Shown: positions 23,893 to 61,452 of the stretch, piece by piece | Numbering within the stretch: the first letter of the stretch is position 1 | Layout: each line of letters begins with the position of its first letter | DNA from: Rhizopus arrhizus | Taxonomy: Eukaryota; Mucoromycota; Mucoromycetes; Mucorales; Rhizopodaceae | Assembly: GCA_024220505.1 (NCBI GenBank) | Contig: JAKZZE010000012.1 | Location: 1,727,928 to 1,791,927, forward strand | Direction of reading: 5' to 3' | DNA length: 64,000 nucleotides | Position numbers and translations under genes: made by a program | The notes under the pieces: model-generated | Databases searched by the model: none | The model's input: the letters and a program-made list of their open reading frames with translations, nothing else | Told to the model about the DNA's origin: nothing

Positions 23893-24444
23893 CGAGCAGT
23901 ACAAGGATCAAGGCGTTTACGAAAGCTATCCAAACTGTGAGTATTTGCTTCAACAGCAATACATGTCTGAAGAAGAAGACATGTACAACAATGATACAAT
24001 CGACAAGGTGGAGGAAATTCTTCTGGAACAAAATCCAGATAGAATGGCTCCTTTTACTGAAAAGGAACGTACAGTGACTCCCAAAAGTGTCCCAATGTTT
24101 TGTAATTTTGTCTTTCACTGTCATTGGTGCTATTGCTATTTGCATAAAATATGCCTTGTTGTACCTCATTTGAAAGCTACGGTAGTGTAGATGTACGTGG
24201 TACAAGTTACGTCTCAATTGATGTAGCGCAGGCGGAGATAAATCATATACAAAACGAGTGGTGCATTGGGACACTTTTGGGAGCATATTGAAAAAATCGG
24301 AATATCTACAAAATATCCACCCACAACTTGCATACAATCACCAAACTGCATATATTAGCGTCGCAAACGTATCTGATGCCCAAATTATTATTTGCTAAAG
24401 TTTTAAGCTCCTACTCTGCTATAACTCGCTCATTAAATCTCAAT

Positions 24445-27400
24445 ATGAAACACGTCCCCCAAGGCATGGTATTTCAAGCTGTTTCTCTCTTTAAACAAGG
24501 TAAGTCGGTTCGGGAGGTGGAAGAATTGACGGGTTTAAGCAAGAGTACGGTTGGGAGACTCCGAAAAACCCATTGCGCTGGTGTTATGAAGCCAAACATG
24601 GGCCGACCCAAGGTGTTGTCTGCAGCCGATGAACGTTACTGTGTACGCCAGGTCACCAAAAATCGTGTTCCTAGTGCTGTGAAGGTTACCGAATGCCTTG
24701 AAAACGATATTGGAAAGAAAGTAGGTGTCGAAACAGTTCGTAGAGCCCTTCGGAAGGCAGGCTTAGGTGTGATTGAGAAGCCAAAGAAGCCATTACTCAG
24801 CGCGAAGAATATCCGAAACAGACTTTCTTGGTGTATTGCTCACAAGGACTGGACAGTAGATGACTGGAAACGTGTTATTTGGTCAGACGAAACAAAAATA
24901 AACAGATTTAATTCGGATGGACGCACCTGGGCATGGATTCGATCAGGGGAAAGCCTAAAATCTCATCATGTGAAGATGACTGTTAAACACGGTGGAGGCA
25001 GTATTATGTTGTGGAGTGCTATTACCTACAGTTGTTGGAATAATTGTTCGGATGTTTTGCAATTTTATACGTTTTGCTTTGTATCTCTGCAGTCAGATAG
25101 GATAGAGCTACTTACAATACCTCATTAGAAAGCGACAGCTGTCACATATAACATATAAAAAGTTAAGGTTAGGGGATTACTTCCATATATAGTAAGGTCA
25201 AATTGTGTCAAGCATGTGCATTCGAACAATTTTTCCAACTCAATGCATTCTATAATGATGATATCATTGACGTTTCTGACGTAATAATGAAATAGCGCTT
25301 TTGCTTTTAGTCAGAGCTTAAAATATATAAATAAGGCTGGATTTTGCAGTGTTTCCCTTCTACCTCGTACAGCCTATACTTCTTTATATCATGGTACACC
25401 CTTTATCTCGTAGCAAGCAAGAAAGCATCCGGTCGTTGTTGAAAAAGGGTTTATCATACTCAGAAATCATGAAACGTGTTCCAGGAGTATCAAGGTCCAC
25501 TTTGAGCAAGTACAAGAACTTGTATGCACCTAAACGTACTCGAGGTCATGCTGGTAGAAAGACTACTATAAGCTCAACGACAAAGAATTACTTGAAGAGA
25601 GAGCTTATAAATGGCTCATTTCAGACTGCAAAGAGCGTATGGTCATATTTAAACAGTATTGGCTGTAAGATAGGCTATTTTGGTACAGTAAAAATGCTTC
25701 ACAGCATGGGTTTCAGTACCCAAATTAAGAAGAAAAAGCCTCTCCTCAAAAAATCACACATGGAAGCTAGACTAAAATGGGCTAAAGCTCATAAAGATTG
25801 GACAGAAGATGACTGGAGGCGTATGGTGTTTTCTGATGAGACCAAGATTAATGTTTGGGGCTCGGATGGTTGTAAATACTTTAGGAGAAGACCTGGTGAC
25901 AAATTACAACTTCATCATCTTGACCTTACAGTCAAAGGAGGAGCTGGCAGTGTGATGATTTGGGGTTGTATGACATGGGATGGTCCTGGATATGCCTGTG
26001 CAATTGAGGACGGTACTATGAAAGCATCAGATTATGTTCATTGTTTTGCCAAGTATTAAAATAAGAGACAAAAACTAAAAAAGACAATAGTTGTGAAACT
26101 AAAGATTATATGTTGCTTTATTAATAAAAACATTTGAGGCTATTTATACTTTTGGATGTCTGGATCTTTACCGCTATTTCAATTAATCGGTTAAAAGAAT
26201 GATGTGGGAAGAATGGGAAGATAAAGGAAAGATAGTAGATAATCAATAGCCGCTGTCTTCTTGACGAATCAAGGGACAATGAAGTAGATAAATTATTGAT
26301 CTAACGATAATTATCGAATAAGATTGGATTAGACTGCCGTTGTTATAATCAGGTTCCGATATAGTCGTGGGAACGCCAATAGAGACAACAGGGCAGAGTT
26401 AGCTATTGCGGAGATCTCTCGTTTATCCATGAATGTTCACTGTCATGTTTTGACATGTCAATAAGATACAGTCTTATCATTCTGGACTAAATCTTTACAA
26501 ATGAGTTTGAATAAGAATAGAACCTGATAATTATCACTGCCCTAAACAGCCAAGTTTCACTTTCATCTCAACAGTTGATTATTAACATCAGTCTATAAAA
26601 TTTTTCTTATACATGTCAAATCATATCGGTCGTAACTATTTTTGTCATCTAATCTCAGGTCTTGCTCAACTAATATAAATAGCCTTGAAATCTTTCTTTA
26701 ATAAAAGTATTCGACTTTAGAACTATTGTTCGGTCTCGTTAATTCTTCTTTATCTTATTTTTGAATACTTAAAACACTTCATTCACTTTACTAGTTGTGT
26801 GGATACAACATTCATATCCTGTCAACTACACTGATGGACAGTCTGAACTACTGTGGCTACAAGCAGGAGGCTATCTATTTTCAACAAGATAACGATCCTA
26901 AGCACACATCGAAGCTTGCTCGTGCTTGGTTTAAAGAAAATGGGTTTAAAGAAGAGTACACCTTCAATTGGCCAGCTCAAAGTCCTGATTTGAATCCTAT
27001 GGAGCATCTCTGGCACCATTTAAAGTTGAGGCTGAATTTATATGAAACTAGGGCTAAAGGAGTGCATGATCTCCGGTCTAGAATCGATAAAGAATGGAAC
27101 TTTTTTACTAAAGAGCAATACCAAGCATATATCAAGAGTATACCAGCTTGTTGTAGAGCAGTCATTAAAGCTAAATGCGGTTATACACGATATTAAATAA
27201 AAGATGATTCAGTTGGAAAAATTGTTCGAATGCACATGCTTGACACAATTTGACCTTACTATATATGGAAGTAATCCCCTAACCTTAACTTTTTATATGT
27301 TATATGTGACAGCTGTCGCTTTCTAATGAGGTATTGTAAGTAGCTCTATCCTATCTGACTGCAGAGATACAAAGCAAAACGTATAAAATTGCAAAACATC

Positions 27401-27872
27401 CGAACAATTATTCCAACAACTGTATGCTGGAGTCGGTTGGATGTGCAAAATCAATGGTAATATGGACAAAGAATTGTATAAAGAGATTTTGGAGGATGAA
27501 CTGGAGCGTACAATTGAGTATGGTGTCAGTAAATTAGGCTTCGAACGTCACCAGGTGATTTTCCAGCATGACAACGACCCTAAGCATACATCAAAAGTAG
27601 TAAAGGAGTACCTCCAAAAACAATTTTATACTGTTTTACAATGGCCTGCACAATCTCCGGACTTAAACCCTATCGAAAATATGTGGTCATTGCTGAAAAG
27701 GAGACTTAATGACTATGAAACCGCACCAAAAGGCATGAACGAGCTTTATGAACGTGTGACTAAGCTTTGGTACGACCTTATGAAGCCGGAAGAGTGTCAA
27801 AAAGTTATAGAAAGTATGCCACAACGTATACAAAAGTGTATTCAGAACAAAGGACGTTGGACAGACTATTAA
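24445..27872 (+). CDS. Tc1-D transposase, interrupted by Tc1-F
   Basis: Parts 24445-25028 and 27425-27872 join in frame (SAITY then AGVGWM) to 344 codons, stop included. N-terminal HTH (VREVEELTGLSKSTVGRL), linker GRPKVLS, first Asp in IWSDETK, second in FQHDNDPKH, Glu in SPDLNPIENMW, C-terminus KGRWTDY. No other defect is visible, so this copy was probably functional until Tc1-F entered. Confidence 0.9.
25391..27196 (+). CDS. Tc1-F transposase, interrupted by a solo LTR
   Basis: Parts 25391-26041 and 26816-27196 join at KASDYVH-ILSTT to 344 codons, stop included. Motifs: YSEIMKRVPGVSRSTLSKY (HTH), FSDETKINVWGSDG, FQQDNDPKHTSK, SPDLNPMEHLW. I start at ATG 25391 (MVHPLSRSKQ), which matches the family length better than the ATG at 25349. 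Frame otherwise intact. Confidence 0.88.
26042..26810. repeat. Solo LTR in the Tc1-F transposase
   Basis: 769 bp, TGTTTTGCC...GATACAACA, flanked by TTCAT (26037-26041 and 26811-26815). No internal gypsy genes: the remnant of LTR-LTR recombination. A degraded relative lies at about 48566-49100. Confidence 0.88.
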
Positions 27873-28479
27873 TAATAAATAAATAAAGATATTCCGATTT
27901 TTTCAATATGCTCCCAAAAGTGTCCCAATGCACCACTCGTTTTGTATATGATTTATCTCCGCCTGCGCTACATCAATTGAGACGTAACTTGTACCACGTA
28001 CATCTACACTACCGTAGCTTTCAAATGAGGTACAACAAGGCATATTTTATGCAAATAGCAATAGCACCAATGACAGTGAAAGACAAAATTACAAAACATT
28101 GGGACACTTTTGGGAGTCACTGTATGTCTGTCTTGTGCAAGAAAACAGTTGATTATTTTGAAGTTCGCGTACCAAAGTACAGATCACCTGCTGTAAGTTT
28201 AATTAATATCTTTTTAAGCGCAATCAACTAATTATCCAATATTCAGTGTACCGAATTTTTTAAGCTGTTGGATGATCAGATAGCAAGTGACAAGGCAAAG
28301 AGGCAAAGAACTGGAAATAACAGCATCCAATTTCTTCCTCGTGTTCAAAGAAAATGCTCGTTGCCTGTTCCTGACTTCATCAAAAAAGAAAATATAACTG
28401 AAGAGAGTATCGCTTGGGCTTTTGGTAGTGAAATAGAGTTGGATGAAATCAACTTGCTGTTTTAAAAAAAAAAAAGTAA

Positions 28480-29764
28480 AAAAAAAAAAACTTGTGAAAT
28501 AAATAAAACAAAAAAAATGAAAGCGGTGTTTAGATCTTTAAATTTAATTTTTTTTTTTTTTACCTTTGTTTCATTCTAGATTTGGTTACAGATAAAATCA
28601 GTTTGCCGTTTGTATTGTGGTCTTTGAATCTTATTTTAGATTTCTGTTTGATGCTTTCCACCTTCGTCATATTTGGTCCACCTTTATTTTTTTTAATGAA
28701 AAAAATTTCTAAAGCACTTTTTTTTTAAAACCCAAATTTAAAACGCTGCGTTTTTTATTCAAGTTAAAACAGTACATTGAATGGAGATTCCTTTTGTAAT
28801 GTCAATACTGGGAATGTAATTTTTTTTTTTACAATTTCAACATTGCCACTTTTTTTTTTTCAAAAGTACTCAGTAACAATATACTTTTTCTTTTGTTTTT
28901 AACTTTTTCATAGAAATCTCAAGACATGTAGCATAATAGACATTCATTCCGTTGCCGCCTTTTTTTTTTCTTTACTCTCAAAAAATAAAAATGATTATCA
29001 AAAATACTCTGTTTTTTTTATGCCGTGATCTTACTATTTAAAACATATCTTTTTCAGCTTTAAAACAAGTTTAACTTCTTTAGAGCCAAAAGAATCCTTC
29101 TTTTTTTTATATATTTTATTCAATCTTTTAAATTTTCTACTATATTCACATTCTTTTTTTTTTGTTCCAATTTATAAACACATACTTTTATACTTATTAT
29201 TATAGCGATATTATGCACTTATATAAGAGTTTCATCCCTCTTATTCATATGTATCTCTTTACTCTTTCTTTTTTTTTTTTTTTTTTCTTTTGTTCATTAG
29301 TAACCAAAATAAATCTCCTTTTGTATTAAACAAAGTTTTTTTTTTTGGTAAAATACGACATGAGAACCGAAGAATGCTTGAAAAGAAAACGCCACGACTC
29401 AATCACTTGGATTTCCGAGCTTGTAGGCCAATAGAACTGTGTTTTCGATCTTTGTTGAAGTTAAAAAATATTGCACTGAAGTTGAAAAAGCATAGTCTTC
29501 CCAATTTGTAATCTTGTATGGCATCATGTAGCACAACAGAAAATTATTTATTTTTTTAAAAAATACAATGTCTTTTTATTCAACAAACATATTATATACT
29601 TTTGATTATTTTTTTAGATTTACAATCTATTTTTTTCAAGCTTTCTTCTGATATAAAAATCAGCTTTCTAACATTTAAATCCGAGTTCTCACTCATTTAA
29701 TAGAATTACCACTATCAAAAAAGATCAACTTTATCAACTTGGATAACGGTGATTGGGTGCAATG
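28480..29764 (+). other. Conserved region X1 of CACTA-like unit A
   Basis: AT-rich, with many T-runs, and homologous throughout to X2 (about 49250-50648). The most conserved part is a 46-codon frame, 29374-29511, starting MLEKK and ending LPNL-stop, aligned without gaps to 50258-50395. Some differences are synonymous (Leu TTG/TTA, Lys AAG/AAA). X1 ends GATTGGGTGCAATG. It is either the last exon of a third gene or subterminal sequence needed in cis. Confidence 0.5.
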
Positions 29765-30478: not shown

Positions 30479-30493
30479 CACTGCAAATAATTG

Positions 30494-31656
30494 CTATATA
30501 TATAGTATTATATTTGACAGAATATAATGAGATATTTCGGGTTTACGTCAATATATTTACAGATTCCATAAAATATGTACTTCGTATATTTTGCTCGAAA
30601 TGTTAAGATATGTATATAAAATACCGTGTTACTTTTGGTGACGCGCCGCTTCATTGTTCTTTCTACGATGATACACAAACATAACGCTTTTCCATTGGAC
30701 CTTACATGCTTGCGTTTCTCTTTGATGCTACTTCTTTATTGGCTTATTGCCTTTTCACAATACTTTCTTATTGGTTTATTATGATTATATATAGCTCTGG
30801 ATGATTTGTATTAGGAAAAAAATAGGCTTAAAACACGGTATTATTGGTCAAAAATGTGGTTTTATTCATTTATTTTTGGGCTCTTTTGCCATATTGATTA
30901 TATATTATTGGTTCATTTGATTATTAAATATGATTTAAAAAAAAGAGTGGGGGGGGGGAGGAGCAGGGAATTTATGGGAATAATGAAACATCACCTTTAA
31001 ACGGTAGATACAAAAAAATTTTTTTTTTTTCAAAATTGCACTTACCTTGACCTCAGAAGCATCAAACAATAGAATATAGCAGACAAATCAGACAAAGCAA
31101 ACAAATACAATGAAGCAGCCTCAAAAGAGATCAAAAGCAATATAAAGATGAAGACAGTAGACTAAGCAGGAGGAAAGTAGAGTCAAAGCTAAATAAAATG
31201 AAAGATTAATTACAGTGAAACATGATGTACCCGATTTTCTTACATTAAACCTCTTTAAAAACCAGAAGACGATGCCAAACTATTCAAACAGCTTCAGAAT
31301 CAAGCCTAGAAAACCAAATTTGATTGTTAATAAAGATAATGAAGGTTTAAAAGCATACTTACCACATAAACAGATACAGAAAAGACTCAAGAACTTATGA
31401 CAGCCATGAGTATATCTATAAATCTTTAATAAAGAACATTAGAAAAAAAAATTTTAAAAAAAGAGAGACTTACTTGGGATAACAAATCAAAAAAAAGAAA
31501 GAAAGAAAAGAAAAGATTCATCTGAGACATCAATCCTTTTATAGATTTTTTGACTTGAATAGAACTGAGTTTACAGTTGAACGCAATAGTATTTAAGATG
31601 TATCTAGCTTCAATGTTATGTTTCTTTACTTTTCCTTCAAAATACCTTCTATCATT
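30494..31656. other. Left subterminal region of unit B
   Basis: AT-rich leader before the accessory gene, with a G-run (near 30950), A/T-runs and a 61-codon frame at 31215-31400 without recognisable motifs. Holds the promoter of the accessory gene by position. Confidence 0.4.
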
Positions 31657-32673
31657 ATGTCTGACCGTATTATCGAATTCAACCCTGCACCTGCCAATGC
31701 TCGTGGTCCTAGCTCGACTGGGCAGCCAATTGCTGTTCCTTCCCGTGTTGCTTTTCCTGAGGTTGCCTCAAGCGATGCTGTTTTTGATAGCTTTGCCTAT
31801 CCTAGACCTGGCTTCCCTCCTATTACCAATGTGCAGAAGCGAATGCGTGAGGCTGAGGACATTGGAAGTGATGAATCTTCTCTTTCCTTCTCCATTTATA
31901 TGGATATGAAAAAGGAAATTGACTCTCTGAAGGAGATGTTAAGGAAAGAACAGGAAGAAAAGCGTGCCTTGCAAGTGGCATTTAGCAAGCTGAAAGAAGA
32001 ATATAGAGAGCTTGAGGAAGCCTCAAGCAAAAGTGCAAAGCCAATTGCAACAGCTATCAAAGTAAGATTATTAATAATTTAATTTTAAACAAGTGTACTA
32101 AGTACTTTTTTTTTTTTCTTAAAATATAGGATGCTGTGAGGAATCATTACAATGATTTACCTCCATCATCTAAGTACGATCTCAGCAAGCCTTTAAAGTC
32201 TGCTGAGAATCAGAGAGTATTTAAGCTGTTGCAAGAGTATGTCAACAGCCATTATGCTTACAAGAGTACTAATGGCCGAGACTTACGAAGATACCTTGAA
32301 CGACAGTACTATACCAAGAAAGCTGGTATGGCTGGAGAAGAGGTTGGTTTTGTCGACGAGTTTATGAAAAAAAGAAAGGCTGCCAAAACAACTCGCAAAA
32401 ATACGGTAAGTAAAATAAAAGTCATTATTATCATAGTTGACTTTTTTTTAGAAAATCAAGGCACGTAAGGCTATATACGAGCAGTATAAGGATCAAGGTG
32501 TTTATAACAACTATCCCAACTGTGAATACTTGCTTCAACAGCAATACATGTCTGAAGAAGAAGACATGTATAACGACGAAACAATGGACAAGGTGGAGGA
32601 AATTCTTCTTGAACAAAATCCAGATAGAATAACTCCTTTTACTGAAAAGGAACGTATGTCTGTCTTGTGTACG

Positions 32674-33070
32674 TGTGATATTTAGGGTTTATAATATAAA
32701 AAAGTACTAAGTCAATCAACAAATATAAAAAATAAGTGAGACTCAAAGTAGGTTGTCCTTTATTCAAGTTAAAAATATGAGGGTATTTATACTTTTCTAT
32801 CCACGGCTAAATAATAGTATTTACAGTATATGATTATTGATTATTAATCGATATTAGACGATGCGTTAATTACATGATTGGTATTGTTTAACATCTTTTA
32901 TCAAGAAGTAATTATTAATCCTGATTCAGGAACTTGTTAGAATATTCTGGAGTGGATCGGGATATGATTTTATTTGACGTGGCATAATACAATGTCCGAT
33001 ATTCCTAATTTGGATGATCATTGTTCGTAGTAATTTACAGTATTACTTTATTATATGTGTAAATACCACA
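32674..33070 (-). repeat. gypsy-3 3' LTR (left copy)
   Basis: 397 bp. On the + strand it starts TGTGATATTTAGGG and ends AATACCACA. Differs from the right copy at two sites (gagactc/gaggctc and tatttacag/tattcacag). Confidence 0.9.
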
Positions 33071-33102
33071 TCCCTCCCTGCCAGGTTGGGACAATCGTTT
33101 AT

Positions 33103-36100
33103 TTATGTACGATTTCTTTTGCTTCGTCTTAAGTCGTTAATATCTGTGGCTTTTCTTTTAGTTTTATTATGGGTCTTGTCTATGTCTTTAGATAATTTAT
33201 ATTTATTATCCTGATTAACTTTGGCGTCCTTATCATAGAGTGATTTAAGTGATTCTGTAGCTTTATGTAAAATTCCCTTTTCATTATTGTGTTTATGTAT
33301 TAAAGGCTTATTTTTTATGGGACCTTTCTTGAATTTATTTTGTGGATGTAATCCCATTCTTTTCATATAGTTCTCAATGGTAGAGGTATGAGTGATTTTA
33401 TCAGGCGTAAGCCATGAGTCTTCATCCTTACTATACCCTTTCCAACGTACTTTGAACTCTCTGTTATTACCGCTGCCTCTGTGATCTACGATTCCTTCGA
33501 TTTCATAAACCTCTTCATTGTCCTCATTTATATTATGCAGATCAATTGGTTTTAATTCGGAAGGAGTATAGTCTCGAGACATTAGTAATCCCATTTCGTC
33601 CTGGAGCACGTAGGATCCACCTCTGGTTTTACGAATCACTGTGTATGGGCCATCATATACAGGATTTAATGAACCAGTCATAGTAGGAACTTTAGCCATG
33701 ACATGACTTCCTTCTTTGAAGTCATCAACTATTGTGTTATGCTTTTCAAACTGCTTTCTCATGTTTTCAACATACTTGTCAGTTTTATCTTTAATGGCTG
33801 GGAAGACTACTTGATTCATATGATCAATTCTTTCCAACAATTCTTCGTATGAGAGCGGTACGGCTTTCTTAGGATCCTTTTTTCGGTAATCTTCGAATCC
33901 GTTCATTTTTCTCGCAAACATCAAAGAAAAAGGTGGAGTGTTGAGTCTTTTAGATACTTTGTTATTTATAAATAACTGTACACTAGGTACATAAAAGTCC
34001 CAGTCTTGTCCTGTTCCTTGTACTGATTTAGCAATAGCAATCTTAGCAGTCTTAACCCATCTTTCCGCACTGCCATTTGCTTGCGGATGATAAGGTGAGA
34101 TAAGTCTGTGATCTATGCCTGTACTTTCAGTTAACAGTTTCATTGTGACATTTTTAAATTCGGTTCCGTTGTTTGATTGTAAAATACGTGGGTAACCAAA
34201 GTCACTAAAAACTTGAACAAGAGTTCCAGCAATAGTTTTGGCTTTCTTATTTGGTAAACACCTTAGAATACAGAATCGTGTGCATATGTCTAATAGCACT
34301 AATAAGTATTTATTGTCATTCGGAGTTGTGGGTAATTCAGCTAAATCCATTGACCAGTGATCACCAGGTAGATATGAGTATACTGGTCTTAGAGGATGAT
34401 ACCCTTTTCTGGTTATATTATGCTTTTGACAAGCAACACATGATTTAACAAGTTCGACTGCGTCGACTATCATGTTTTTCCAGTGCAATCCGTCATTATG
34501 TAATACTTTTACTATATTTTCAGCACCAAAGTGACCCATTAGGTGAGCCCTTAACATCAGTTGCTTCCTTTCATTTTCAGGAGGAGTCATATAGTCACAC
34601 TGCTTATGTTGTGCAGGTTTTTTTACTGTGAATTTTTTACGATTATTTGATCTTATAGCTCTTATTGCTGTATGTATAATGCCATTTTTAGCTCTAGTAT
34701 CCTGTTCACTCCCCCTCAGCATTTGATCCGTAGGGAAAAGGCGAGATAAATGGTCAGGTAATATGTTCTCCATACCAGGAAGATGAATTACCTTAAATTG
34801 GTAATCGAGAATGGTATCAAACCAATTCATCATCATGGTATTTGCATATTTTTGTGTATGAAGATAAGTCAGAGCTTTATGATCCGTATAAAGTGTAAAA
34901 GGATTACCCCATAAAAATTTATGAAACTTTTTGAGTGCAAATACGATTGCTAAAAGTTCTCTCTTCGTGGTACTATAATTTCTCTCGGACTTGGAAAGAG
35001 AACGTGCCATGAAACCAATATATTTTATCGTGGTCTTTTTCTTTCCTTTGTTCTTTAAAACATTATCGTTTTTAGCTACATCTGTAGAATCAACATTAGA
35101 TGTCAACTCCACTTGTTCTTGATATAGCACAGCACCAATACCGTAATTTGAAGCATCAGTTGCAACAAAGAATGGCTGTTGGAGATCAGGTTGACTTAAT
35201 ACCACATTAGAAAGTAAAACTTTCTTTATTGCCTCAAAATGAGTTTGATGCAATGGTGTCCAATCCTTTTCAGTTATTATTTTGCTGTTACGAAGATGAT
35301 CTAAAGGAGCAGTTAACATGGCTGCTTTAGGAATGTGTTCGCGAAAATAGTTTACAACACCTAAGAATCGCTGAACATTAGTGCCACATGTAGGTTTGGG
35401 CCATTCCTCAATATTTGTTAGCTTACGAGTGTCTAACGAAGATCCTTTAGCAGAAATACAAAAACCGAGTAAATAAACACAGTTTTGTGCAAAATGACAT
35501 TTATCAACGTTGAGAACGAGATTCACCCTGGTAAGCGCTTCTATGGCAGCTTTTACATGTACAGCATGCTCTTCCATATTTTTCGACATTATAACGATAT
35601 CGTCAATGAAAGTTCGTACAAAGGGCATGTCTTTAAATATCTGCGTTATCACTCTTTGGAATACGTTTGATAGGAACTTTATCCCAAAACGAGCACCAAC
35701 AAACATATACTGCTGACCGTTATATGTAAATGCGGTTTTAGGTTGGTCTTCATCATGAATTTTAAAACGATGAAACGCAGCAGTTAAATCCAAAGTAGTG
35801 AAGATTGAGGATCCAGATAATTCATGAAAAATATCCGTTATGAGAGGTATAGGAAATTTATCATCTGGTAATAGAGCATTTATATGTCGAGGATCTAAAC
35901 ATGGTCTTTTTCCAGTTTTATTTCCATTTGCATCCTTTTTATCAGCTAAAGTTAATGGAGAATTCCAGGCTGTATTTACAGGAGCTTTTGTGATGGTACC
36001 ATTGTCCAACCATTTATTGATGGCTTCATCCAAGACAGGTTTCAATTTATACGCTATGGGATATTGCTTATGATTTACAATTTTTCCTTTTTCCGTGGGT

Positions 36101-39726: not shown

Positions 39727-39768
39727 CTTGATTTTAGAACAATAGCGTAGTGTATTCACTTAAAAAAA

Positions 39769-49150: not shown

Positions 49151-49199
49151 TTCAACTTTTGTGTTAAGATATTTGAATCTTTTCCCATCATATTCAGTA

Positions 49200-50648
49200 T
49201 TATATTGATTGACTTACATAAGTGCACTACTTTACAAAAAAAAATGATGGAGTTCAGTTAAGTGTACTACGGTAATCCAAAAAAAAAAAAGAAAAGAAAA
49301 GGCAAAGTGATGATATTCTTAATCAAAGATAGGACAAAAAGCTCATAAATAAAGGGCATATATATTGAATAATAAATTGTAATTAGCGCACAAAGGCAAA
49401 TGAATTAAAACATTTGAAATTGCCGGCTCAGCTAGATTTTTTTTTTTTCAAAGTACTTAATCAAAAAAAAAAATAATTCCAATTTCAGTGCAATTTCTAA
49501 AACCGCTTTTTATAACCCAAAGTAAATCTCTGTATGCTCTATGAATAAAACGAAGATCCTGTAAGTAGGTTTGTTCAACTTAAGGCAATTTGTAAAAGTA
49601 AGTATTCTTTTGCAATTTCACTTAACATTCTTTTTTTTTAACATGCAAGTAATTCCAACATTGCTTTTTTCACATGCAAGTAATTCCGACATTGCAATTC
49701 TCTAATTTCAACATTACTTTCTTTTTTTTCTAAATCTATCAAAATGTTCGATTTTATTTCATTAACAATAATCCTTTCTTATAGTCTCTGTTATAAGGAA
49801 TCTCGAGACATGTAAATTCACTTGATTTTAATATTGTTGTTTCTTTTGCAGTTAAAAATAAAAATGATTATCAAACCCATTCCCTTCTATTTTCTGCTTA
49901 GCTTTAGTCCTTTAAACATTGCACTATCATCTTTGATAGATGCTATTTTCCTTACGGTCAAAAAAGAAATAACATTTTCTTTTTTTTTCTTTTTTTTCCT
50001 TTTTTCTTGTTCATTTTTGTTTCTAGCTTTTATCTTTTATTTAACATTTATATTTATTACTTCCCTGTAGACCATTCTTTTATTTCAATTGTAAATAATT
50101 AATTTTACTCTTCGTTGGATAAAAGCATTGAACTCATGTTCCCTTTCACAATTTAAGTAATGTTGCTCTCTATCTTTCATTATAAACCTACAAAATTATT
50201 TTTTTGGGTAGATGTACTATGTACTTTCTTTTTTTTTTGCAGTATAGCAAATCGAGTATGCTTGGCAAGAGGAGGTCGCAGCTCAAGCAGTTAAATTTCC
50301 GAGCTTACAGTCCAATGGATTTACTTCATTGACCTTTGTTGAAATTAAAAAATCATACACTGAATTTGAAAACTTTTCATTTTCCCAATTTATAAGTTTG
50401 CATGGATTCATGTAGTACAAAAGAGAGAAAAAATTTTTTACAAGAAATACAATTTCTTTTTATTCAATATACAGATTATAAACATATATATATCATTATA
50501 GATATAACATATATTTTTTTCTAGGTTTTTTTTGATACAAATATTATATATCTATCCTGCAAATTCCAAATTTGTATTATTTATTCGAAGTTCAACTGTT
50601 AAAACACCCGAAGTATAATAATTTAGAATATAGGGATTGGGTGCAGTG
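49200..50648 (+). other. Conserved region X2 of CACTA-like unit B
   Basis: Homologous to X1. Holds the matching 46-codon frame at 50258-50395 (one internal stop), preceded here by a T-rich stretch and GCAG that could be a splice acceptor. A short motif, aagtaattccRacattgc, is repeated at about 49647-49700. Ends GATTGGGTGCAGTG, one base before unit C starts. Confidence 0.5.
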
Positions 50649-50924
50649 TCACTGCAAATAATTGGAGATATTAAACGTAGTTTTTTAGCATAAATGAGCG
50701 CAACAACGCGAAGTTTAACGCAACTCCACGGAATTTTATTGCTCTTTTAAAACGATTTTCGAGGCAGAGCAGTAATCGTTAAATAACTTTTACGCAAGCA
50801 AGAGGAGGTCGTTAGTGTTCTTTTACCAACCATTTTTTTACGTTTCAATTAATACTAGTCAACGTTTGGGCACGAATGATACGTTTAAAACATTACTTTA
50901 TATGTCTTTTGTTCTTTTATCGAC

Positions 50925-51110
50925 CGCTCATATTGCCTTATATACTTCTTCATCGAACACTCCTATTGCCTTATATACTTCTTTATTGACCACTTCATAT
51001 TGCCTTATATATTCTTTATGAACCACTCATATTGCTTTATATGGCTTCTTTATGAACCACTTATATAGCTTATATACTTCTTTATTGACCATTCATATTG
51101 CAATAAAATA
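50925..51110. repeat. Tandem repeat of about 35 bp
   Basis: About five imperfect copies of a unit built around catattgccttatatacttc followed by a tttattgaccac-like part. Subterminal in unit C. Confidence 0.75.
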
Positions 51111-51465
51111 TTGCTTTATATATACAAAAAAATAGGGATTTGGTTATAAAAATAGCTTTTTTTTTATTTAAATAAAATAATAATAACAATACATAGTATT
51201 TCTTTGCTTGTAGCGTTTTAAAAGTGTACTTGACTTACCTAATGTCACCAGAATAGCAGCATCTAATCTAAAAATACATCAACTAGTCTCGTGGAACTCA
51301 AAAAGTTCTCAAAAGAAAAAAAAAAAGCCAAGCTCAAGGATTCAGAGACACAAGGATTCAAGAATTCAAGGACTTGGGCACTCAAAGCAAAAGAAAAGAC
51401 ATCAGTACTTAAGAACCAAAGCGAAATTAGGAAAGAAACAGAAAGAGGCCAAAGCAGAGCAGCAT

Positions 51466-51683
51466 TCATCTATAACAATTATTAGCTATCGTGTATATGT
51501 AGTAAAAGTAATAGTACCTTTCTTTAGATAGACCATGGGAAGAAAACTAGCTAAGCGTATACTCACAAGTAAAAAAAGCAGCAGACATCTATAATAATTA
51601 TTAGCTATTGAGTATATATAATAAAAGTGATAGTACCTTTCTTTAGATGGGCTAAGAGAAAAACCTTGCTAAGCTTTACCAAC

Positions 51684-51750
<67 letters not shown>

Positions 51751-51880
51751 AAGCAGTACTCCTCTATAATAATTAATTAGTTATTGAGTATATAGTAAAA
51801 GTAATAGCACCTTGCTTTAGGTGGACCATGAGAAAAAAAAAGAAAAAGAAAAAAAGACAGCAGCCAAGCTTATACTAACA
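51466..51880. repeat. Three tandem copies of a roughly 130-bp subterminal repeat
   Basis: Each copy has a CTATAA-AATTATTAG-like start, GAGTATATA, AAAAGTRATAGYACCTT and GCTTTA/CTTTAG-type parts, then an A-rich end. The middle copy ends in a 61-A run (51688-51748). Subterminal arrays like this are typical binding regions in CACTA transposons. Confidence 0.7.
51688..51748 (+). repeat. A61 homopolymer
   Basis: Uninterrupted run of A within the subterminal repeats of unit C. Confidence 0.95.
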
Positions 51881-52382
51881 GCAAAAGAAGAAGCAACTAT
51901 AATCCTGGGAAAAAGACTTTATAAAGACCATTTGAAACATCAAGAAAGCAACTAATACGATTTACTAAAGTTCAAGTACCATCAGAACAATAATAGAGTA
52001 CATATATATTAAGAACTTACCTTTTAGAAAGAATGTTTTGTTAAAAAAAAAAGAAAAAAAAAGGAAAAAAAAAAGTAACTTTTTTTATAGCCTCATTTTA
52101 CCAGTGTTACAGTTACCCACTATCGATTAAAAAATAAGTCTTCTTTAATACTGTTTAACTATTGAAACATTCAGAGAGGCTATTCATAAACAGTTTAAAC
52201 TTTCTCTTCTTCTTCTTTTTTTTTTTTATTTAAATGTAATATCTTTAACTCCAAAGGCTTTTTTTTCTTTCGCTTTTTTTGTAGAACAAACAAAAGTATC
52301 AGGTTGTTTTGTGTTCATCTTTAGTTTATTTTGTACTCTTGTTTTTTTTTTTTCTTCCTTTTATATAGATTTATCTTGAAAA

Positions 52383-55260
52383 ATGTCTCGTCGTCGCGCT
52401 ACCCCAATCATGTTCCCAGTAATGCCCCTAAAAGGGCAAGAATATCTTCAAGCATTACTGGATCATCATCCACCGTTCTCCCGTCCTCTTCTCCTGCCCC
52501 CACTGCTGTTGGCGTCTTTTGACAGCTTTGAGCCTTCTCGCCTTCAAGGCCCAGTTGGGCTCTTCTGCAAATGGCCAACCCTTGAGGCCATCTTATGCTC
52601 AGATGCAGCAGCAGGAGCAGATTCAACGCCGACAGAGGAGAATCAACGTCGGCAGGAGCTGAAGATTGAGCAGCTAACTCGAATTGCTGCAACACAACAA
52701 CAAAGGGCAGCAACAGCATCAGCAGCAGCCTCCACAGCAGCCTCCACAGCAGCAACCTTCTGAGGTCAAAGAGAATAGGGCCTTGACCAGTGTAATTTGA
52801 ATTTAAAAGCTAAATTAGCATGTGCAAAATAATAACTACAATTTTTGTTTTAAACCCTTTTTGAAATATAGGCTTTCATATTGAAGTACTACAGAGAGCA
52901 TCTGGTCCCTCGTGGTATCACCTTTGACCTGAAGGAGGTCTTGCGCTACAAGCAAAACGCAAAGGTCAGAGATTTGCTTGTAGCAGCTGCCAAGAAGGAG
53001 CCATTTTCTGCTGGCATTACTGTTTCTGACATGCGCAGCATGGTCAGAAACAATTCAACTACATGGTGAGAGAAAATAAGGGCTGACGGCTACGTCAGAA
53101 GAATCAACGCGCCGTAGTCGTGTGCATGCAGTAAGTAATTAATATTGGAAAATTGAAATATAGTGTTTGAAGTACAGTAGCGGACAAAACTGGTGCACAA
53201 AATTAAAATCACATTGTATCTCCGCCATATGTCTGCGACTTTTGTGGCATATACCATCTGAAAGACAGTCTAAAAATATACATTATGTTATGTAAACCGA
53301 ACTGTGCCGGACATCCCCCAGGCATAAGGTCATTTTTAGTGATTTTTTGCATATTTCAATTTTCCGCCAAAAATGTAGTGCTTGTCTAGCCTTCTTTCAA
53401 TTTTCCCCATATCTCTCCCGTTTGCTTTCAGATTTCACAGCATATTAGTAAATCTTAGTAGCTCTTAAAAAATATATAAAATCGTAGTTATTTGTATTTC
53501 CCATTGAATCCCCCCTTTTGTTTTTACCCTATTCACTATAACAAAGTACTAGCCTTATATGTTTAAGAAAATAAGCAACTGTAAAAACGAAACTCTGAGA
53601 TCTCGAATACACTTAGTTCGTACGACAACAGATATTTCTAGAATAACAAGAATCTCTAAATGGACAATCAACAGGAGAAAGAGGGAAGAAAGAAACTTAA
53701 TGTCTTGTGATCATGAAGGTCTCCCGCTTTTAGTCTGAAAAGTTACTAGTTCAGTCATCAACCTAAAGCTTGGACAAGGTCCGTTACACACAGTTCCTGA
53801 TGCTCAGCACATTTTGAGGATCTTAAGATACAGTGTTAGCAGACTGTCAGTCTAAAGGCACAGTAGGAAGCTAGATTTTGAGTCTGGAAGTAAGGAATCG
53901 AAGAATTTCATCAGCTGTATAAGTCGGAAAAAGCGATGAATGTGGTATCACAACAAGCCATTGTATACAATAGAGGGCTGGAAGTCTGCTATCTTTAGCA
54001 ATGAAACAAATATGAACATTATGGATGCAGATAGTATACACTAATATTGAAAGCAAGTCGAGCAACCTGAGCGATTTTTTCACGGTGATCAAACAATGAA
54101 GCATGCTGGCTGCTCTGTTATGTTTTAAGGCTGTATTAGATATTGAGGACCAGAATATGTGTGTCAGGTATACGATGGTATAATGAACTCATAAATATAC
54201 ACATATATTTCGCTTACTTCATACCACAAAAGCCTAGCGTATAGTAGTCTAAAACGTCGTAATCTCTCGTTTCAGTATGACAATGACACAAGGCACAAGT
54301 CAACGCATGTCACAAACTCAATATTTGATAACAGCGCTTCTGTGCTACAAGTTTAGCCGCCACTAATCCCGGCCTAAGTCCGCTTAAGCATGCCAGGTGG
54401 CAATTGATGGCAAAGGTATGATGATACGACACTAGATGAAAAAGGGTCGATGATCTTTGGAAAAGAATAGTTAAAGAGCCGGGTTCTTTTACTGAAAATG
54501 ATATACACGCATATTATTAGCATATGCAAAGAAGAATATCCGATAATATCAAGAGATGAGATGATTATATAAAGTCTAAGATTTTAGCCACTTTTGCGGT
54601 TTTTAGAAAATATAAGATTTTATAAATTCAAAGCACGCTTATCGCTCAGTTTTAACAATGTCATGCTTAGAACATACATAGATTACAATGACTAGTATAT
54701 CCTCCTTCTAGTACAGTTTCATGACTATTGCAATTACCATGAGCAGGTAATGGTAGTTAAAAGCTAAAAAAAAAAGTTTTGTGCACCAGTTTTGTCCGCT
54801 ACTGTACTTACATTACTTCTTTAAAGCTCGCCATGAGGCGAAATGCTTACAATGCAGCCCCAGAGGAATTTGAAGCTCGTTTTCCTTTTGGAAAAAAGCT
54901 TCTGATAACCGATTGGACCTCAGAGGAAGAAGATGGCCCTGAGGATGAACATGGTCCTGTGTTTGTGGTAAAAAGACCACTCTTTCGAAGTAAAGCAGTA
55001 AGTAGTAATTTTTGTTATAGTATTTATTTTCTAATATACCTTTAATTAATCTACAGGTGGACGAATTCCATGCTTCTCTTCAAAAAGCATGGAGAGACTC
55101 CTTGTCGAAAAAAGGCACCATCAATAGAACAAGAAGGGTGGTGGACTACTTCGACAAGGAGTTCCCCACAAACCTTGACCATGAGGATTATCCCTCTTGG
55201 GCCTTTTCTTCTCCTGGCCTTGGCTTTTCCTCTTCTGCTGCTGCTAATCCTATGCAGTAA
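52383..55260 (+). pseudogene. Accessory gene of CACTA-like unit C, decayed
   Basis: Homologue of the unit A/B gene with conserved gene structure. Exon 1 starts 52383 (MSRRRATPI) and becomes glutamine/alanine-rich but changes frame more than once. Exon 2 (about 52872-53131) has FDLKEVLRYKQNAKVRDLL and DMRSMVRNN, then TGA and TAG stops. R2 lies in the next intron. Exon 3 (54827-54997) has ITDWTSEEEDGPEDEHG and VKRPLFRSKA; exon 4 (55057-55260) starts VDEFHASLQKAW. The last intron is at the same position as in unit B (after RSPA/RSKA). Both stops could be C-to-T changes (CGA, CAG). Confidence 0.65.
53173..54806 (+). mobile_element. R2, uninterrupted copy of family R
   Basis: 1634 bp, TA-flanked, same TIR as R1. 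Located in an intron of the unit C accessory gene. Transposase relic in three frames with many stops; a few base differences from R1. Confidence 0.92.
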
Positions 55261-55345
55261 GCGTTTACTTTCTCTTTTCTCTCTCCCTCCTTTTTTTTTT
55301 TTTTTTTGCTGCCTTTTTGTTGTCTCTGCAAATTGAATAAAAATT

Positions 55346-58300
55346 TCAAAAAAAAAATAACAATAATAGTCTATTGAATGATTCTTTAGTAAAATAAATA
55401 ATAATAATAATAATAAAAGAATGTTTGAATAATTTAGCATAGTTGTTACATATAAATTCTTCTTGGCAGAGCGAGAGTAAGAAGGTGGTTATCAACATAT
55501 GGACATATAGCACAGGGTTGAAAATCCTGTAAATTGGAAGTATATTGCTGCTTGTAACTGGATCAAATTGATTCTTCCACACTTGGATGCCAGTACCATC
55601 AAAGGTGGGAAAATGTTGGGTCGCATGGCTGTACCAATTGACGAATGCAAAATAATGAGTGGTATTGTTGAAGGAATGTGAAAAAAAATATAATATTTGA
55701 CCAATTCGTAGTTGGTTATTTACAACGGCTTGAATGTATGATGATGATGAATGACTGTCTGATTGTTGGTAACGTTGTCCAAGCAAGTTAATTTTCTTAA
55801 ATGATTGTATGATTGTACTAATTGTATTCATAATAGGTGTTTCATAGGTATCCATATACAGTAGCGGACAAAACTGGTGCACAAAACTTTTTTTTAGCTT
55901 TTAACTACCATTACCTGCTCATGGTAATTGCAATAGTCATGAAACTGTACTAGAAGGAGGATATACTAGTCATTGTAATCTATGTATGTTCTAAGCATGA
56001 CATTGTTAAAACTGAGCGATAAGCGTGCTTTGAATTTATAAAATCTTATATTTTCTAAAAACCGCAAAAGTGGCTAAAATCTTAGACTTATATAATCATC
56101 TCATCTCTTGATAATTATCGGATATTCTTCTTTGCATATGCTAATAATATGCGTGTATATCATTTTCAGTAAAAGAACCCGGCTCTTTAACTATTCTTTT
56201 CCAAAGATCATCGACCCTTTTTCATCTAGTGTCGTCTCATCATACCTTTGCCATCAATTGCCACCTGGCATGCTTAAGCGGACTTAGGCCGGGATTAGTG
56301 GCGGCTAAACTTGTAGCACAGAAGCGCTGTTATCAAATATGAGTTTGTGACATGCGTTGACTTGTGCCTTGTGTCATTGTCATACTGAAAACGAGAGATT
56401 ACGACGTTTTAGACTACTATACGCTAGGCTTTTGTGGTATGAAGTAAGCGAAATATATGGTTATTTATGAGTTCATTATACATCGTATACCTGACACACT
56501 ATTCTGGTCCTCAATATCTACTACAGCCTTAAAACACTAACAGAGCAGCCAGCATGCTTCATTGTTTGATCACCGTGGAAAAAATCGCTCAGGTTGCTCG
56601 ACTTGCTTTCAATATTAGTGTATACTATCTGCATCCATATGTTCATATTTGTTTTCATGGCTAAAGATTAGCAGACTTCCAGCCCTCTATTGTATACAAT
56701 GGCTTGTTGTGATACCACATTCATCGCTTTTTCCGACTTATACAGCTGATGAAATTCTTCGATTCCTTACTTCCAGAATCAAAATCTAGCTTCCTACTGT
56801 GCCTTTAGACTGCGACAGTCTGCTAACACTGTATCTTAAGATCCTCAAAATGTGCTGAGCATCAGGAACTGTGTGTAACGGACCTTGTCCAAGCTTTAGG
56901 TGATGAACTGAATAGTAACTTTTCAGACTAAAAGCGGGAGACCTTCATGATCACAAGACATTAAGTTTCTTTCTTCCCTCTTTCTCCTGTTGATTGTCCA
57001 TTTTAGAGATTCTTGTTATTCTAGAATATCTGTTGTCGTACGAACTAAGTGTATCGAGATCTCAGAGTTTCGTTTTTACAGTTGCTTATTTTCTTAAACA
57101 TATAAGGCTAGTACTTTGTTATAGTGAATAGGGTAAAAACAAAAGGGGGGATTCAATGGGAAATACAAATACTACGATTTTATATATTTTTTAAGAGCTA
57201 CTAAGATTTACTAATATGCTGTGAAATCTGAAAGCAAACGGGAGAGATATGGGGAAAATTGAAAGAAGGCTAGACAAGCACTACATTTTTGGCGAAAATT
57301 GAAATATGCAAAAAATCACTAAAAATGACCTTATGCCTGGGGATGTCCGGCACAGTTCCGGTTTACATAACATAATGTATATTTTGGACTGTCTTTCAGA
57401 TGGTATATGCCACAAAAGTCGCAGACATATGGCGGAGATACAATGTTGATTTTAATTTTTGTGCACCAGTTTGTCCGCTACTGTAATAATTTTGTAAGAC
57501 TTCATAGTGTTCAGGGCATAGATTGTTGTTTGTTGTTGGTTTTTGAAGGAAGGGATTTTGGTGGCAGAGGCTCACTACCAGTAATTGTCAGGTTAAATAG
57601 ACTTGGTCCGTCTATGAACTGAGCGTAATCAAATGGCGTTAGACCACTCTCGTCATTCGTAACTTCGCCTATTTCCTTATAAAGTTGAGTAGTAGGAGCA
57701 TGTCTTCGTTGTTGGTATTAAAAAGTTGTTGATAATGAATGTATAAGATCTTGTGTATGTAGTGTTTGTGTAAGCATAGTGACATAGTAGTTTCGAAGCC
57801 TGTCTTGTTAATTGATATTTATCTTTTTGACATCACCATTCAAGCGTTTCAAACCATAGAGCCAAAAGGCATAAGAGGGACCAAAGTCCAAAAGCATTCT
57901 TTCAATGCATGTGCATATGCATATTTGGTGTTATACTTGTTTTTCCATAAAGTTGAGCACAAGTCTTGCCAAAGGTCTTAAATAATGAATGTGCTGTGTG
58001 TATTTCTTCAATTGTGATCAAGGACCAGTCACCAATCTTACTGCTTCTACATATCGCAATCCATTGATGAAATGTTCACCGATTAGTCTTTGTTTTTAAC
58101 AGAAAAAGCGAAAGCACAACACACCACGTTCTCCATTCATCGGATTTCATATTGCTAAAAGTACTTTCAATCTTGCCTTTTTTTTTTTTGTTTTTTTTTT
58201 ATACAAAAAATTAGTGTTCAGAATTATCACATAATTAATTCTTTTATATTTGTTGCATACCTTTGGAGATTCTGCAGTACTGTGAAGGAATAGCAATTGA

Positions 58301-59892
58301 AGCTGATTCATCAGCCATGGCTTTGAAATCAGCCGTAGAAAGAAGCCCGTGATCTACCCAAACTTCAACCATTCGTTTTGGCGTACCTAGAAATAAATTG
58401 TGCATAGGATCAACTGTTGTTAACCTTACAACATCAAAGTATTCTAGTCGGTGAAGTTCACTCCATTTACTTCCTGTGTCCGTCTGCAGGGTTCTTTGTT
58501 GTGTAATGTGAGTGGCATTAAGCCAAGCATATGCTTCTTGGCGCTGCTGGGTATTGTTTCGCAGAATCCAATGCTCATCGTCAAAGTCTGAAAAATCTGG
58601 CTTCGTTGAATTTGCACCAGTACTGATTCGCGAAAACACAGTGGAACACTTGTTGCAGGCTTTGTGCGCGGATTGACCCATGAATCCAGCTACCTTACGA
58701 GCTGCTGGTATATCACAGTTAACGGACATCAAAGCAACACGTACCATCTCACCGTTTCTGTTCTGGTACGTTGGCATCATCATACCTCCGTACAAGGTAT
58801 TCAGCTCTGCAATCATTGGTCGCAAGAAATTTTGGAGCTGGTCATCCGTGGGTCTCGCCAGGCCCAGGAATCATACCAACCAGGATGATGTTGGAAACCT
58901 TCATCCTGGAACCCCTTGGAAGGTTGTTTGATAGTGAGATATACACCACCGCAAGAGTAATGCATACCATCACTAGGTTGAAACCAATCAACGTTCAATG
59001 ACACCATTAATGATCGTCTTTTATTCACAAATGGCTCCCCAGCTGAGTCGAACCATCTCATTCCAGACTCTACCATCATAAATGTCATACAACACACCTT
59101 CCTCCACATATCGCCTCTCCACTGTTCAATTTCTGTTTCAAAGTTCGGACGGACAAAGAACTTCTTCAACGTTTCGACAATTGAGTTGTACGGGAACTCA
59201 AGGACGGGCTTCAGGCTGCTGCCAACAAAAAGTGAATTACCACATGGGCGCTCTTGTCTGTGGGGGTTGTTTGCAAACCTGACAAAAGGGCATAGTCGGG
59301 TATGCAAACTTCCCGTGTCATAAACACTTCTACAAAGAGAACAGACAAGGAAACGGGAGACACCACTACTGGCAGAGGAATAATTGACCATGGCACGAGC
59401 AGTGGAGATCTTTGTAGGAATCTCCATGCCATGGCCAAGGGCACGAACAAAGAAAGAAAGAAAGGCCAACAGTTCTTCACCGGCTTCAACAGAAAGGTGC
59501 TTTGCTTGAAAAGCACAAGGTAAAGGACCAGGAGATACTCCAATTGTTGGTCGTTGGTCATTCTTCTTCCATGTCGACATCCATGTCAGCATCAAGGTCG
59601 AATTCTAAATTTGTTTAATAAAAAAAAAGGGTGTGTTTATGAATATACCTTCAAACGTGCTTCTTTCGGTAGAACTGGAGGGTTGCTCGAAGATATTTTC
59701 TAATCTTCTTTGTCTCAAAACTATTTTAATTGCACTTTAGTCTTTCTGCATTTCTTTAAAAAAAAGTACCTTCTCCAACTTTGTCAATACGCTTATGAGT
59801 ATTAGCGGTTTCTTGGCAATCATTCTGAATCCTTCAGGACATTTGCTGCATTTGGTGCATTGGCATTTAACTTTGTTGTTAGTGGCGTTCAT
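55346..59892 (-). pseudogene. Tnp2-type transposase of unit C, decayed
   Basis: Starts at ATG 59892 with CQCTKCSKCPEGF, the zinc cluster. Then (59595-58825) VNYSSASSG, FLVCSLCRSVYDTG, MVSLNVDWFQPSDG; frameshifts near 58910 and 58840; then (58825-58244) VNCDIPAARKVAGF, CNKCSTVF, VDPMHNLFLGTPKRMV. A later part (58200-57486) has KSDEWRTWC and TPNMHMHMH with stops. R3 interrupts; across it EVLQNYYMDTYETP lines up with the unit B protein, followed by LGQRYQ and FAFVNWYSHATQHF. It is convergent with the accessory gene, as in unit B. Clearly a pseudogene. Confidence 0.72.
55857..57485 (-). mobile_element. R3, copy of family R in reverse orientation
   Basis: 1629 bp, TA-flanked, nearly identical to R2 reversed. 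Inserted in the unit C transposase gene, whose frame closes when it is removed. Confidence 0.92.
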
Positions 59893-60661
59893 TTCAAAAA
59901 AAAATAATATTCAGGATTTAGTAGAGGAATAAGATAGAAAAAAATGCGTGATCAAAAAAAACTAAAGCAAATATACTAAATTTGGATGTCGTTTCCTAAA
60001 CAGTAACAGTTTTACGTGTACTAAAGAAATGTTTTTTTTTCCTTGTTTTGTTTCAGAGAACATATTTAACATTGAGGATACAAAAGATATAAAAGAAAAC
60101 TCAACAATGGTTAAATGTAAGTTTGTAACAACAAAAATAATACCAGGTCTAACGTCGTTTTTCTTTTTTTTTTTCTTTTTATATTAAGGATTTCTAATGG
60201 GACACAAATGGATGACGAACATGAACCTCATGAGTAAAGTTATTCTTTCCAACAGATAAAACTATAAGAATATCAAACTTATATTACTGCTTGTTGCTGC
60301 AAAGTTTTTTTTTTGATAAAGGTTGGCAATGTTAACATCTCTAATGGCTAATGGCAAATTACACCCATGTGTAAACATAAAGTAAGTAATGAACTAATAT
60401 AAGCTTAAAAACATATATTCTTTTTATTGTATGTCATGAAAAATAATAAAGCAATCATTTACTTGAAAAATAAAAACCCTGTGCTTGTATCTATTGATTA
60501 TAATTGCCTTGTAACAAGATGTTAACAAAGCTTCTTTTTTTTTTATTCTTTTTAGAATATACACGTATTCTTGTTATAATGTACAAGCATTTGTATTTTT
60601 ATAAAACATGTTTACTGTTAGGTTATTGTTTTCATTTGAATAAGTAACATTTTATTGCTAT

Positions 60662-60697
<36 letters not shown>

Positions 60698-61203
60698 AGG
60701 TCTTTTTTTTTTAACCTTGTCTTTTTTTTTTTTACTTCTAATTTTCCAGCTTCTTTTTTTTTTTCCCAACACGCAACTATTTTGTTACGTTCTGTTACAC
60801 GCTTCAAATGAACTAAGCTAAAGATCACAGACTGCCTTCCTAATATGTATTCTTTGATCAAAATAATCACAATGTTGTCTTTTGTTTGCCGCATTTTGCC
60901 CTCAAAATAAAAAAAGAAAATATCGGTCTTTCAACCGATAGAGGAGAACAGGCTTTCCAAAAGAGACTATTTGAAAAAAAAAGACACTTTTTTTAAAACA
61001 TGAATAACTCTAGAATACTTACACCACAAAAAAATAATAAAATTATTAAATTTCTTTATTTTTTTCGCACTAAATCTTTTTTCAAAAATTCAAAAAGGTG
61101 CAATACAGAGCATTTTAATTTTTCGTCGTTAATCAAAGTATTTTAAATCGTTGAAATTTTGATGTTAGAAATGACTGCCAATGACTGATAACGCTGAAAA
61201 TCA
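59893..61203. other. Right subterminal region of unit C
   Basis: AT-rich, many T-runs (longest at 60667-60694), no supported gene. The equivalent position in unit B holds X2, but I see only short shared motifs (e.g. ggcaatgttaacatc), not clear homology. Confidence 0.45.
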
Positions 61204-61219
61204 CCAACTATTTGCAGTG

Positions 61220-61268: not shown

Positions 61269-61452
61269 CAGGTGAAGAGGGATTAGCTCAGTCGAAAATT
61301 TATGTTTTTATTTAAAGATTAATGCAATCGACCTTTAGGCATTATGTGCTATCAAAGTACAAAAAAGAGAATATACATGATACGAAAAAAAGTCCTAGCG
61401 ACCATTTGATGGACCAAAAAAAGAGGAGAGAGAAGAGAAGCCAAAAGAGAAA

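Follow-up and report, generated by a model that had tools for sequence, protein, structure and literature searches.

The window analysed here is a stretch of 64,000 nucleotides from Rhizopus arrhizus (assembly GCA_024220505.1, contig JAKZZE010000012.1, positions 1,727,928 to 1,791,927 of the forward strand), which forms the end of contig C4 in our numbering; the genome searched along with it comprises 50.26 Mb. Three neighbouring transposon units, A, B and C, lie in the window, each with a spliced accessory gene on the + strand and two of them with a convergent transposase gene of the Tnp2 type. We consider it likely that these units represent CACTA-superfamily cut-and-paste transposons with a dedicated second gene, that their insertion is oriented and occurs about 57 bp (55-61 bp) upstream of tRNA genes, and that repeated insertions stack there. 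An earlier note on this DNA had described the units and their two genes; tRNA-gene targeting and end-to-end stacking were absent from it, and together these two properties would explain why such units sit in tandem.

Position and polarity of the insertions

Elements related to the units in the window are referred to as family 1 (that of unit B, 7.8 kb), family 2 (7.0-7.5 kb) and C-type (that of unit C, 7.3 kb), and in uninterrupted relatives the plan runs from the 5' end through a four-exon accessory gene and a convergent Tnp2 gene to the 3' end. For the flank sample we took every exact copy of the right end of family 2, 78 in all. Another CACTG element adjoins 41 of these and the other 37 lie at upstream flanks of tRNA genes. 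ARAGORN recognized a tRNA in 15 of the 37 non-element flanks, all starting 55-61 bp away and sharing one polarity over 12 isotypes, and found none in the remaining 22. An A-box-like motif was present in 24 of the 37, implying a tRNA start at 56-65 bp; in 1,000 shuffles the mean was 1.15 and the maximum 6. With regard to the 13 flanks without an A box: (i) seven match A-box flanks far above shuffles; (ii) five match the flank of locus L016, where a tRNA-Gly lies at 58 bp, with scores of 39-45 obtained without a shuffle control and (iii) the flank of L098 holds a near-A-box stub, identified by eye. As the 37 flanks form 18 distinct clusters, it is the distance and not the sequence that is constant.

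Six of 20 fetched loci have an ARAGORN tRNA 55-59 bp past the element end, these distances being obtained by subtraction from the CACTG termini; three of the six (L014, L020 and L031) recur among the 78 copies. Family 1 and the C-type agree (L016 58, L017 59, L026 55, C16 58, C1 57 and unit C 58 bp), and deletion derivatives that keep only the accessory gene also sit at tRNA genes (L020 and L031).

Stacking was measured with the motif TGCAGTG-N(0-6)-CACTGCA, which occurs at 165 places in the genome, compared with one place for N(20-26) and none for the reversed control. At the 41 family-2 junctions the spacer is 2 bp in 14 cases, 4 bp in 13, 3 bp in eight, 5 bp in four, and 1 bp and 9 bp in one case each. 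Orientations were assigned by eye from the terminal sequences: 32 junctions lead into an element of the same orientation and two into one of the opposite orientation, while seven are unassigned. The 3-bp target-site duplications (TSDs) of L014 and L018 take in the last G of the preceding element; the preceding element was therefore already present and arrays grow towards the tRNA, as they should if the tRNA gene is the reference point for every insertion.

Other sequences were also seen at tRNA genes. As judged by eye, the tRNA genes in the window (61277-64000) and at L041, L048, L051 and L052 are interrupted at the A box, 15-20 bases from their start, by recurrent sequences, and the same is true of L054, L063, L069, L098, L100 and L108. 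In the window, reverse-transcriptase frames follow the tRNA stub on the - strand, and there seems to be a second class of elements, one that inserts within tRNA genes. Separately, sequences resembling long terminal repeats (LTRs), TGTGATAT... and TGACAGTTGC..., were seen by eye just before the expected tRNA start at L047, L060, L065, L067 and L088, a placement expected of Ty3-type elements; an LTR-like sequence also lies just ahead of the expected tRNA start at about 29816 in the window.

Units A, B and C and the accessory gene

The three units are borne out by their sequence as real and not a product of chance. Ends of the form CACTGCA...TGCAGTG bound unit B (30479-50648) and unit C (50650-61219). 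In blastn comparisons unit B is 96-99% identical, piece by piece, to the uninterrupted 7.8-kb copy L017, and the right part of unit A (23891-24069 plus 28124-29764) is 96.5-97% identical to the 3.87-kb derivative L018. The features of the window are as follows.

23891..29764, + strand: unit A, the right-hand part of a derivative of 3.87 kb with the accessory gene only (blastn to L018)
23891..28192, + strand: unit A accessory exon 3, broken by a Tc1/mariner copy
about 24072-28123: Tc1/mariner insert splitting unit A, with an inverted repeat at its ends
28247..28465, + strand: unit A accessory exon 4
28565-28591: unit A Tnp2-deletion junction
29764: unit A right terminus, mutated to TGCAATG (from the sequence)
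30479..50648, + strand (accessory orientation): unit B, a CACTG element of family 1 holding nested insertions, its left flank ending in TCA
31657..32061, + strand: unit B accessory exon 1 (also present in uninterrupted L017)
32130..32405, + strand: unit B accessory exon 2
32452..32673, + strand: unit B accessory exon 3, left part
32674..40165: Ty3-type LTR retroelement inside unit B exon 3; 5-bp duplication GTACG at 32669-32673 and 40166-40170
40171..40221, + strand: unit B accessory exon 3, right part
40275..40493, + strand: unit B accessory exon 4, including the stop
40636..42957, - strand: unit B Tnp2 (Transposase_21) frame, convergent to the accessory gene
50642..50656: units B and C meet end to end, TGCAGTG-T-CACTGCA
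50650..61219, + strand (accessory orientation): unit C, decayed C-type CACTG element with nested insertions
52383..53069, + strand: unit C accessory exons 1-2, frameshifted (homologue P0026)
54826..54997, + strand: unit C accessory exon 3 (SEEED, FRSKA)
55057..55260, + strand: unit C accessory exon 4
55346..59595, - strand: unit C Tnp2 pieces, convergent to the accessory gene (blastn to L024)
61277..61292, + strand: tRNA gene stub (A box TAGCTCAG), implied start 58 bp past the unit C right end

ARAGORN found no intact tRNA in the window. By eye, the right flank of unit A is like the flank of L106, where an intact tRNA-Glu lies at 61 bp, and the left flank of unit B is the flank that also lies to the left of L015 and L016, the latter with a tRNA-Gly on its right side. 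Units A, B and C thus each look like tRNA-linked insertions. Units B and C adjoin with a 1-bp spacer and their outer flanks are different tRNA neighbourhoods; their junction probably arose by recombination between element ends. On the Tnp2 side of unit B the match to the element resumes at 44632-45286, beyond a Tc1-like insert (blastn). Inserts at 24072-28123, 42957-44632, 45286-48564, 53069-54869 and 55813-57501 were recognized as gaps relative to uninterrupted copies, together with inverted repeats; several hold Tc1/mariner frames, and one LTR retroelement also lies within the units.

The Tnp2 of unit B matches PF02992 (Transposase_21; E 1.9e-15) and unit C retains - strand pieces, in keeping with the convergent transposase that the earlier note had assigned to two of the units. 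Transposase_21 was scored at 150 genome places, 149 of them above the cut-off. A convergent Tnp2 within 10 kb accompanies the accessory gene at 63 of 70 C-type loci. The B-type loci number 88, derived from 150 of 217 matches listed and merged within 1 kb; by distance alone, 39 of these have a convergent Tnp2 within 10 kb and nine another Tnp2 arrangement within that range. A 27-nt junction marking one Tnp2 deletion, identical in the five derivatives aligned, is present at 63 genome places (with up to 2 mismatches) and follows 53 of the 88 listed loci, and 11 of the 39 distance pairs are such derivatives beside the Tnp2 of another element. True pairs are therefore found at 28 of the 35 listed loci without the junction; in 20 of these 28, none of them a derivative, Tnp2 lies at 1,724-2,436 bp. 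Unit A, one of the 63 junction places, is not a full element in decay but a derivative whose Tnp2 was lost by deletion while the accessory gene stayed in place.

The unit B accessory protein has 390 amino acids over four exons, as does the uninterrupted L017 copy (exons of 405, 276, 273 and 219 nt), and the C-type protein has 354. By profile comparison the two families are homologous (hhalign 95.2%, E 2.5e-8 over 306 columns of shallow alignments). Three introns, all in phase 0, occupy matching places in B-type and C-type: after ...AIK and ...ECS, after NT in both, and after RSPA and RSNE. The last of these is the shared intron that had been placed directly after the RS-x-A motif. As for the motifs said to be conserved, SEEED is present in both proteins and VRVPKYRSPA (B) or FVVKRPLFRSKA (C) directly precedes the intron, but FDL-x-K-x-L is only partly kept (B: YDLSKPL). 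All named protein relatives come from Rhizopus delemar or R. arrhizus, and none turned up as a single-copy cellular gene in the searches run. Three Rhizopus gene models (P0016, P0018 and P0036) combine accessory exons with a protein of Sds3 type (PF08598) or a transposase domain of Tc1 type (PF13358); these fusions could be annotation errors or exon capture.

No Pfam family exceeded its cut-off for the accessory protein, although a missing match is no proof, and the sub-threshold matches were to a MUS81-like winged helix (E 0.035) and to LexA (E 0.079). Structure prediction, suggested in the earlier note as a way to look for a DNA-binding fold, gave models of low confidence, and a fold search with the C-type model found no convincing match. 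The models show a long helix (coiled coil) and a helical core, and an acidic S/T-E-E-E-D stretch is common to the families. Repeats of 32-33 bp around CTTCTTTATTG lie in the 5' subterminal region of family 1 (L017 1823-2019), family 2 (L014 1965-2203) and the C-type (L024 7704-7868), and were not found at the 3' end of any of the three. By analogy, a TnpA-like DNA-binding role of the accessory protein is possible.

In 12 of 20 accessory copies read, the projected exons are open throughout. Pooled ratios of nonsynonymous to synonymous differences (pN/pS) are 0.21 for family 1 against family 2 accessory genes, 0.16 for derivatives against autonomous family 2 and 0.23 among four derivatives, which represent two distinct lineages; the family-1 copies compared with one another give 0.86, but on almost no changes. 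In four distinct derivative lineages the variable sites number 14, 11 and 28 at codon positions 1, 2 and 3 (p 0.009). Since a single deletion is common to the derivatives, their accessory gene outlasted the transposase, and these comparisons provide moderate support for purifying selection on it, also after Tnp2 loss. The claim that the second gene beside Tnp2 is conserved because it works in transposition, as TnpA does, is partly supported: the gene is multicopy and retained beside Tnp2 over large divergence with the marks of purifying selection, whereas working like TnpA is a possibility, with no DNA-binding family above its cut-off, no convincing fold match and subterminal repeats on the 5' side only.

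Working model and alternatives

Anatomy, position, polarity, stacking and selection on the accessory gene can be read from the sequences: whatever the local sequence, the elements lie 55-61 bp upstream of tRNA genes with the Tnp2-side end facing the tRNA. We envisage that the insertion distance is set from the tRNA gene. Distance held without shared sequence points to a tether on the RNA polymerase III (Pol III) complex, and by analogy TFIIIB may be the contact. Serial insertions would then build end-to-end arrays in which the newest copy is nearest the tRNA. By analogy to TnpA beside TnpD, the accessory protein would probably be a transpososome partner and possibly the tether; because selection persists in derivatives without transposase, its preferred place of action would probably be the copy from which it is expressed, or the nucleus in which this happens. 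Taken further, the accessory protein may have evolved to dock the transposase on the Pol III initiation complex, giving oriented fixed-distance insertion and arrays, while transposase-less derivatives spread by keeping it; this last step we offer only tentatively.

Several observations count against targeted, stacking insertion by a two-gene element or temper its generality. On the flank side, 12 of the 37 flanks were assigned by likeness only and one by eye, no intact tRNA being seen in these; the five L016-like assignments had no shuffle control, and with 18 clusters the 37 flanks are not all independent. On the tRNA side, where scoring covered 63 of 2,878 candidates and the list of C-type ends was a partial one, three of the 63 have a family-1 or family-2 end, 56-58 bp upstream and all facing, four others have a family-2 end at 1.2-2.8 kb, and among 20 scored on C1-C10 one has a C-type end at 57 bp. 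Most tRNAs of the scored subset carry none of the three families. Simple serial insertion does not account for the B-C junction in the window. Furthermore, no matching 3-bp TSD was seen in 4 of the 14 elements that have two ends, convergent Tnp2 is missing at 7 of 70 C-type loci, 7 of the 88 listed B-type loci have neither convergent Tnp2 nor the deletion junction, and 8 of 20 accessory copies are broken. The selection test on derivatives comprises four lineages, and the ratio of 0.23 derives from four copies of two distinct lineages. Finally, contact of any element protein with Pol III factors is something we infer.

Arrays could in principle stem from tandem duplication, recombination between ends or assembly error instead of serial targeted insertion. 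The B-C junction, with its 1-bp spacer between different tRNA neighbourhoods, does look recombinant, but the arrays mix families (at 32 of 41 junctions a CACTGCAAATAAT-type start comes after the family-2 end, and at nine CACTGCACATAAT does), spacer length ranges from 1 to 9 bp and in two cases the TSD takes in the final base of the preceding element, and we regard this explanation as very improbable for the arrays as a whole. Recognition of a DNA sequence upstream of tRNA genes, rather than of a bound protein, would fit the recurrence of some flanks (7 of the 18 clusters have more than one member and five have three or more); the number of distinct clusters and a spacing of 55-61 bp held over 12 isotypes (15 intact tRNAs) make it improbable.

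What the accessory protein contributes is a separate matter. It could itself be the tether, binding TFIIIB or another Pol III factor and carrying the Tnp2-DNA complex to the tRNA gene, and this strikes us as a reasonable possibility, if short of a probable one. The accessory gene is the second gene of intact elements, its predicted coiled-coil helix and acidic stretch are common to the families, derivatives retaining it are still found at tRNA genes, and there is precedent in the TRE5-A ORF1 (open reading frame 1) protein, of unknown function, which contacts TFIIIB according to the part of PMC5911963 consulted. Against this, the long part of Tnp2 outside its domain could tether equally well, and Tnp2 acting in trans would target derivatives anyway. 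Somewhat doubtful, in our view, is a role of the protein in regulation or protection of the element, through promoter control or anti-silencing, that would leave it dispensable for the cut-and-paste steps. Such a role would fit the 32-33-bp repeats, which in each of the three families lie ahead of the accessory gene and were not seen at the opposite end, and likewise maize TnpA, which also controls its own promoter (PMC1636069, in the part consulted). Selection in transposase-less derivatives favours a role in their own spread, although protection from silencing would also fit. We therefore retain, as the likely account, oriented insertion upstream of tRNA genes by a CACTA-type element with a dedicated second gene.

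Comparison with known systems

Plant CACTA elements have CACTR ends and a 3-bp target duplication. In the Rhizopus elements, whose borders were first taken as the ends of alignment between copies and then set by the CACTGCA/TGCAGTG termini, these CACTR-type terminal inverted repeats are present at both ends of 14 of 14, and a matching 3-bp TSD in 10 of the 14. The literature search, which had partial coverage, yielded no CACTA element targeting tRNA genes and, in agreement with the earlier note, no description of the accessory protein family.

The consulted part of PMC1636069 describes plant En/Spm as combining a Transposase_21 transposase (TnpD) with a second protein, TnpA. The Rhizopus elements likewise have Transposase_21 plus a second protein, CACTR ends and a 3-bp TSD, as measured here, but their second gene is separate and convergent, no relation to TnpA was detected (without direct comparison), repeats were found on one side only, and they target tRNA genes. 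Transposase_21 is also shared with SmTRC1 and fungal TRC elements; SmTRC1 makes extra proteins by splicing and has TBLASTN matches in Rhizopus oryzae, but the paper detected no similarity between its accessory proteins and fungal elements, and tRNA targeting is not mentioned in the part consulted. CNIRT6 of Cryptococcus is a fungal CACTA-superfamily element with the CACTG end motif, but the accessible part of PMC12810828 describes it with one transposase gene and mentions neither an accessory gene nor tRNA targeting.

Precedent for small-RNA-gene specificity in a DNA transposon comes from Dada, for which tandem copies are also reported; as presented in the part of PMC3706591 consulted, Dada inserts at specific sites inside small-RNA genes, one gene type per family, with a 6-7-bp TSD, and its transposase belongs to another superfamily. 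The Rhizopus elements differ in having a 3-bp TSD and a position 55-61 bp outside the gene. Fixed distance and polarity, seen at 15 of 15 intact tRNAs, instead place them with Pol III-gene-targeted elements. Insertion upstream of tRNA genes is shared with TRE5 of Dictyostelium (40-54 bp), NLTR-B (39-64 bp) and yeast Ty3 and Ty1, and TFIIIB contact is described for TRE5 ORF1 and Ty3; the table of tRNA-adjacent elements in that review, as far as consulted, holds retrotransposons (PMC5911963). En/Spm-type elements make up 0.68% of a Rhizopus assembly, and tRNA co-localization is reported there for LTR elements (PMC2699053, consulted in part).

Parking beside tRNA genes is thus best known from another class of mobile DNA, having been described for retrotransposons and, inside the genes, for Dada. 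If a CACTA-type transposon uses this safe haven from outside, one more class of enzyme would have arrived at it independently. Its natural arrays would record serial insertion, so that the rule (distance, polarity and order) can be read from sequence, and the conserved second gene, of a kind that an earlier survey had failed to follow from animal to fungal CACTA elements, would gain a concrete candidate role. TRE5, NLTR-B, Ty3 and Ty1 are retrotransposons that depend on reverse transcriptase, whereas the Rhizopus element is a cut-and-paste DNA transposon.

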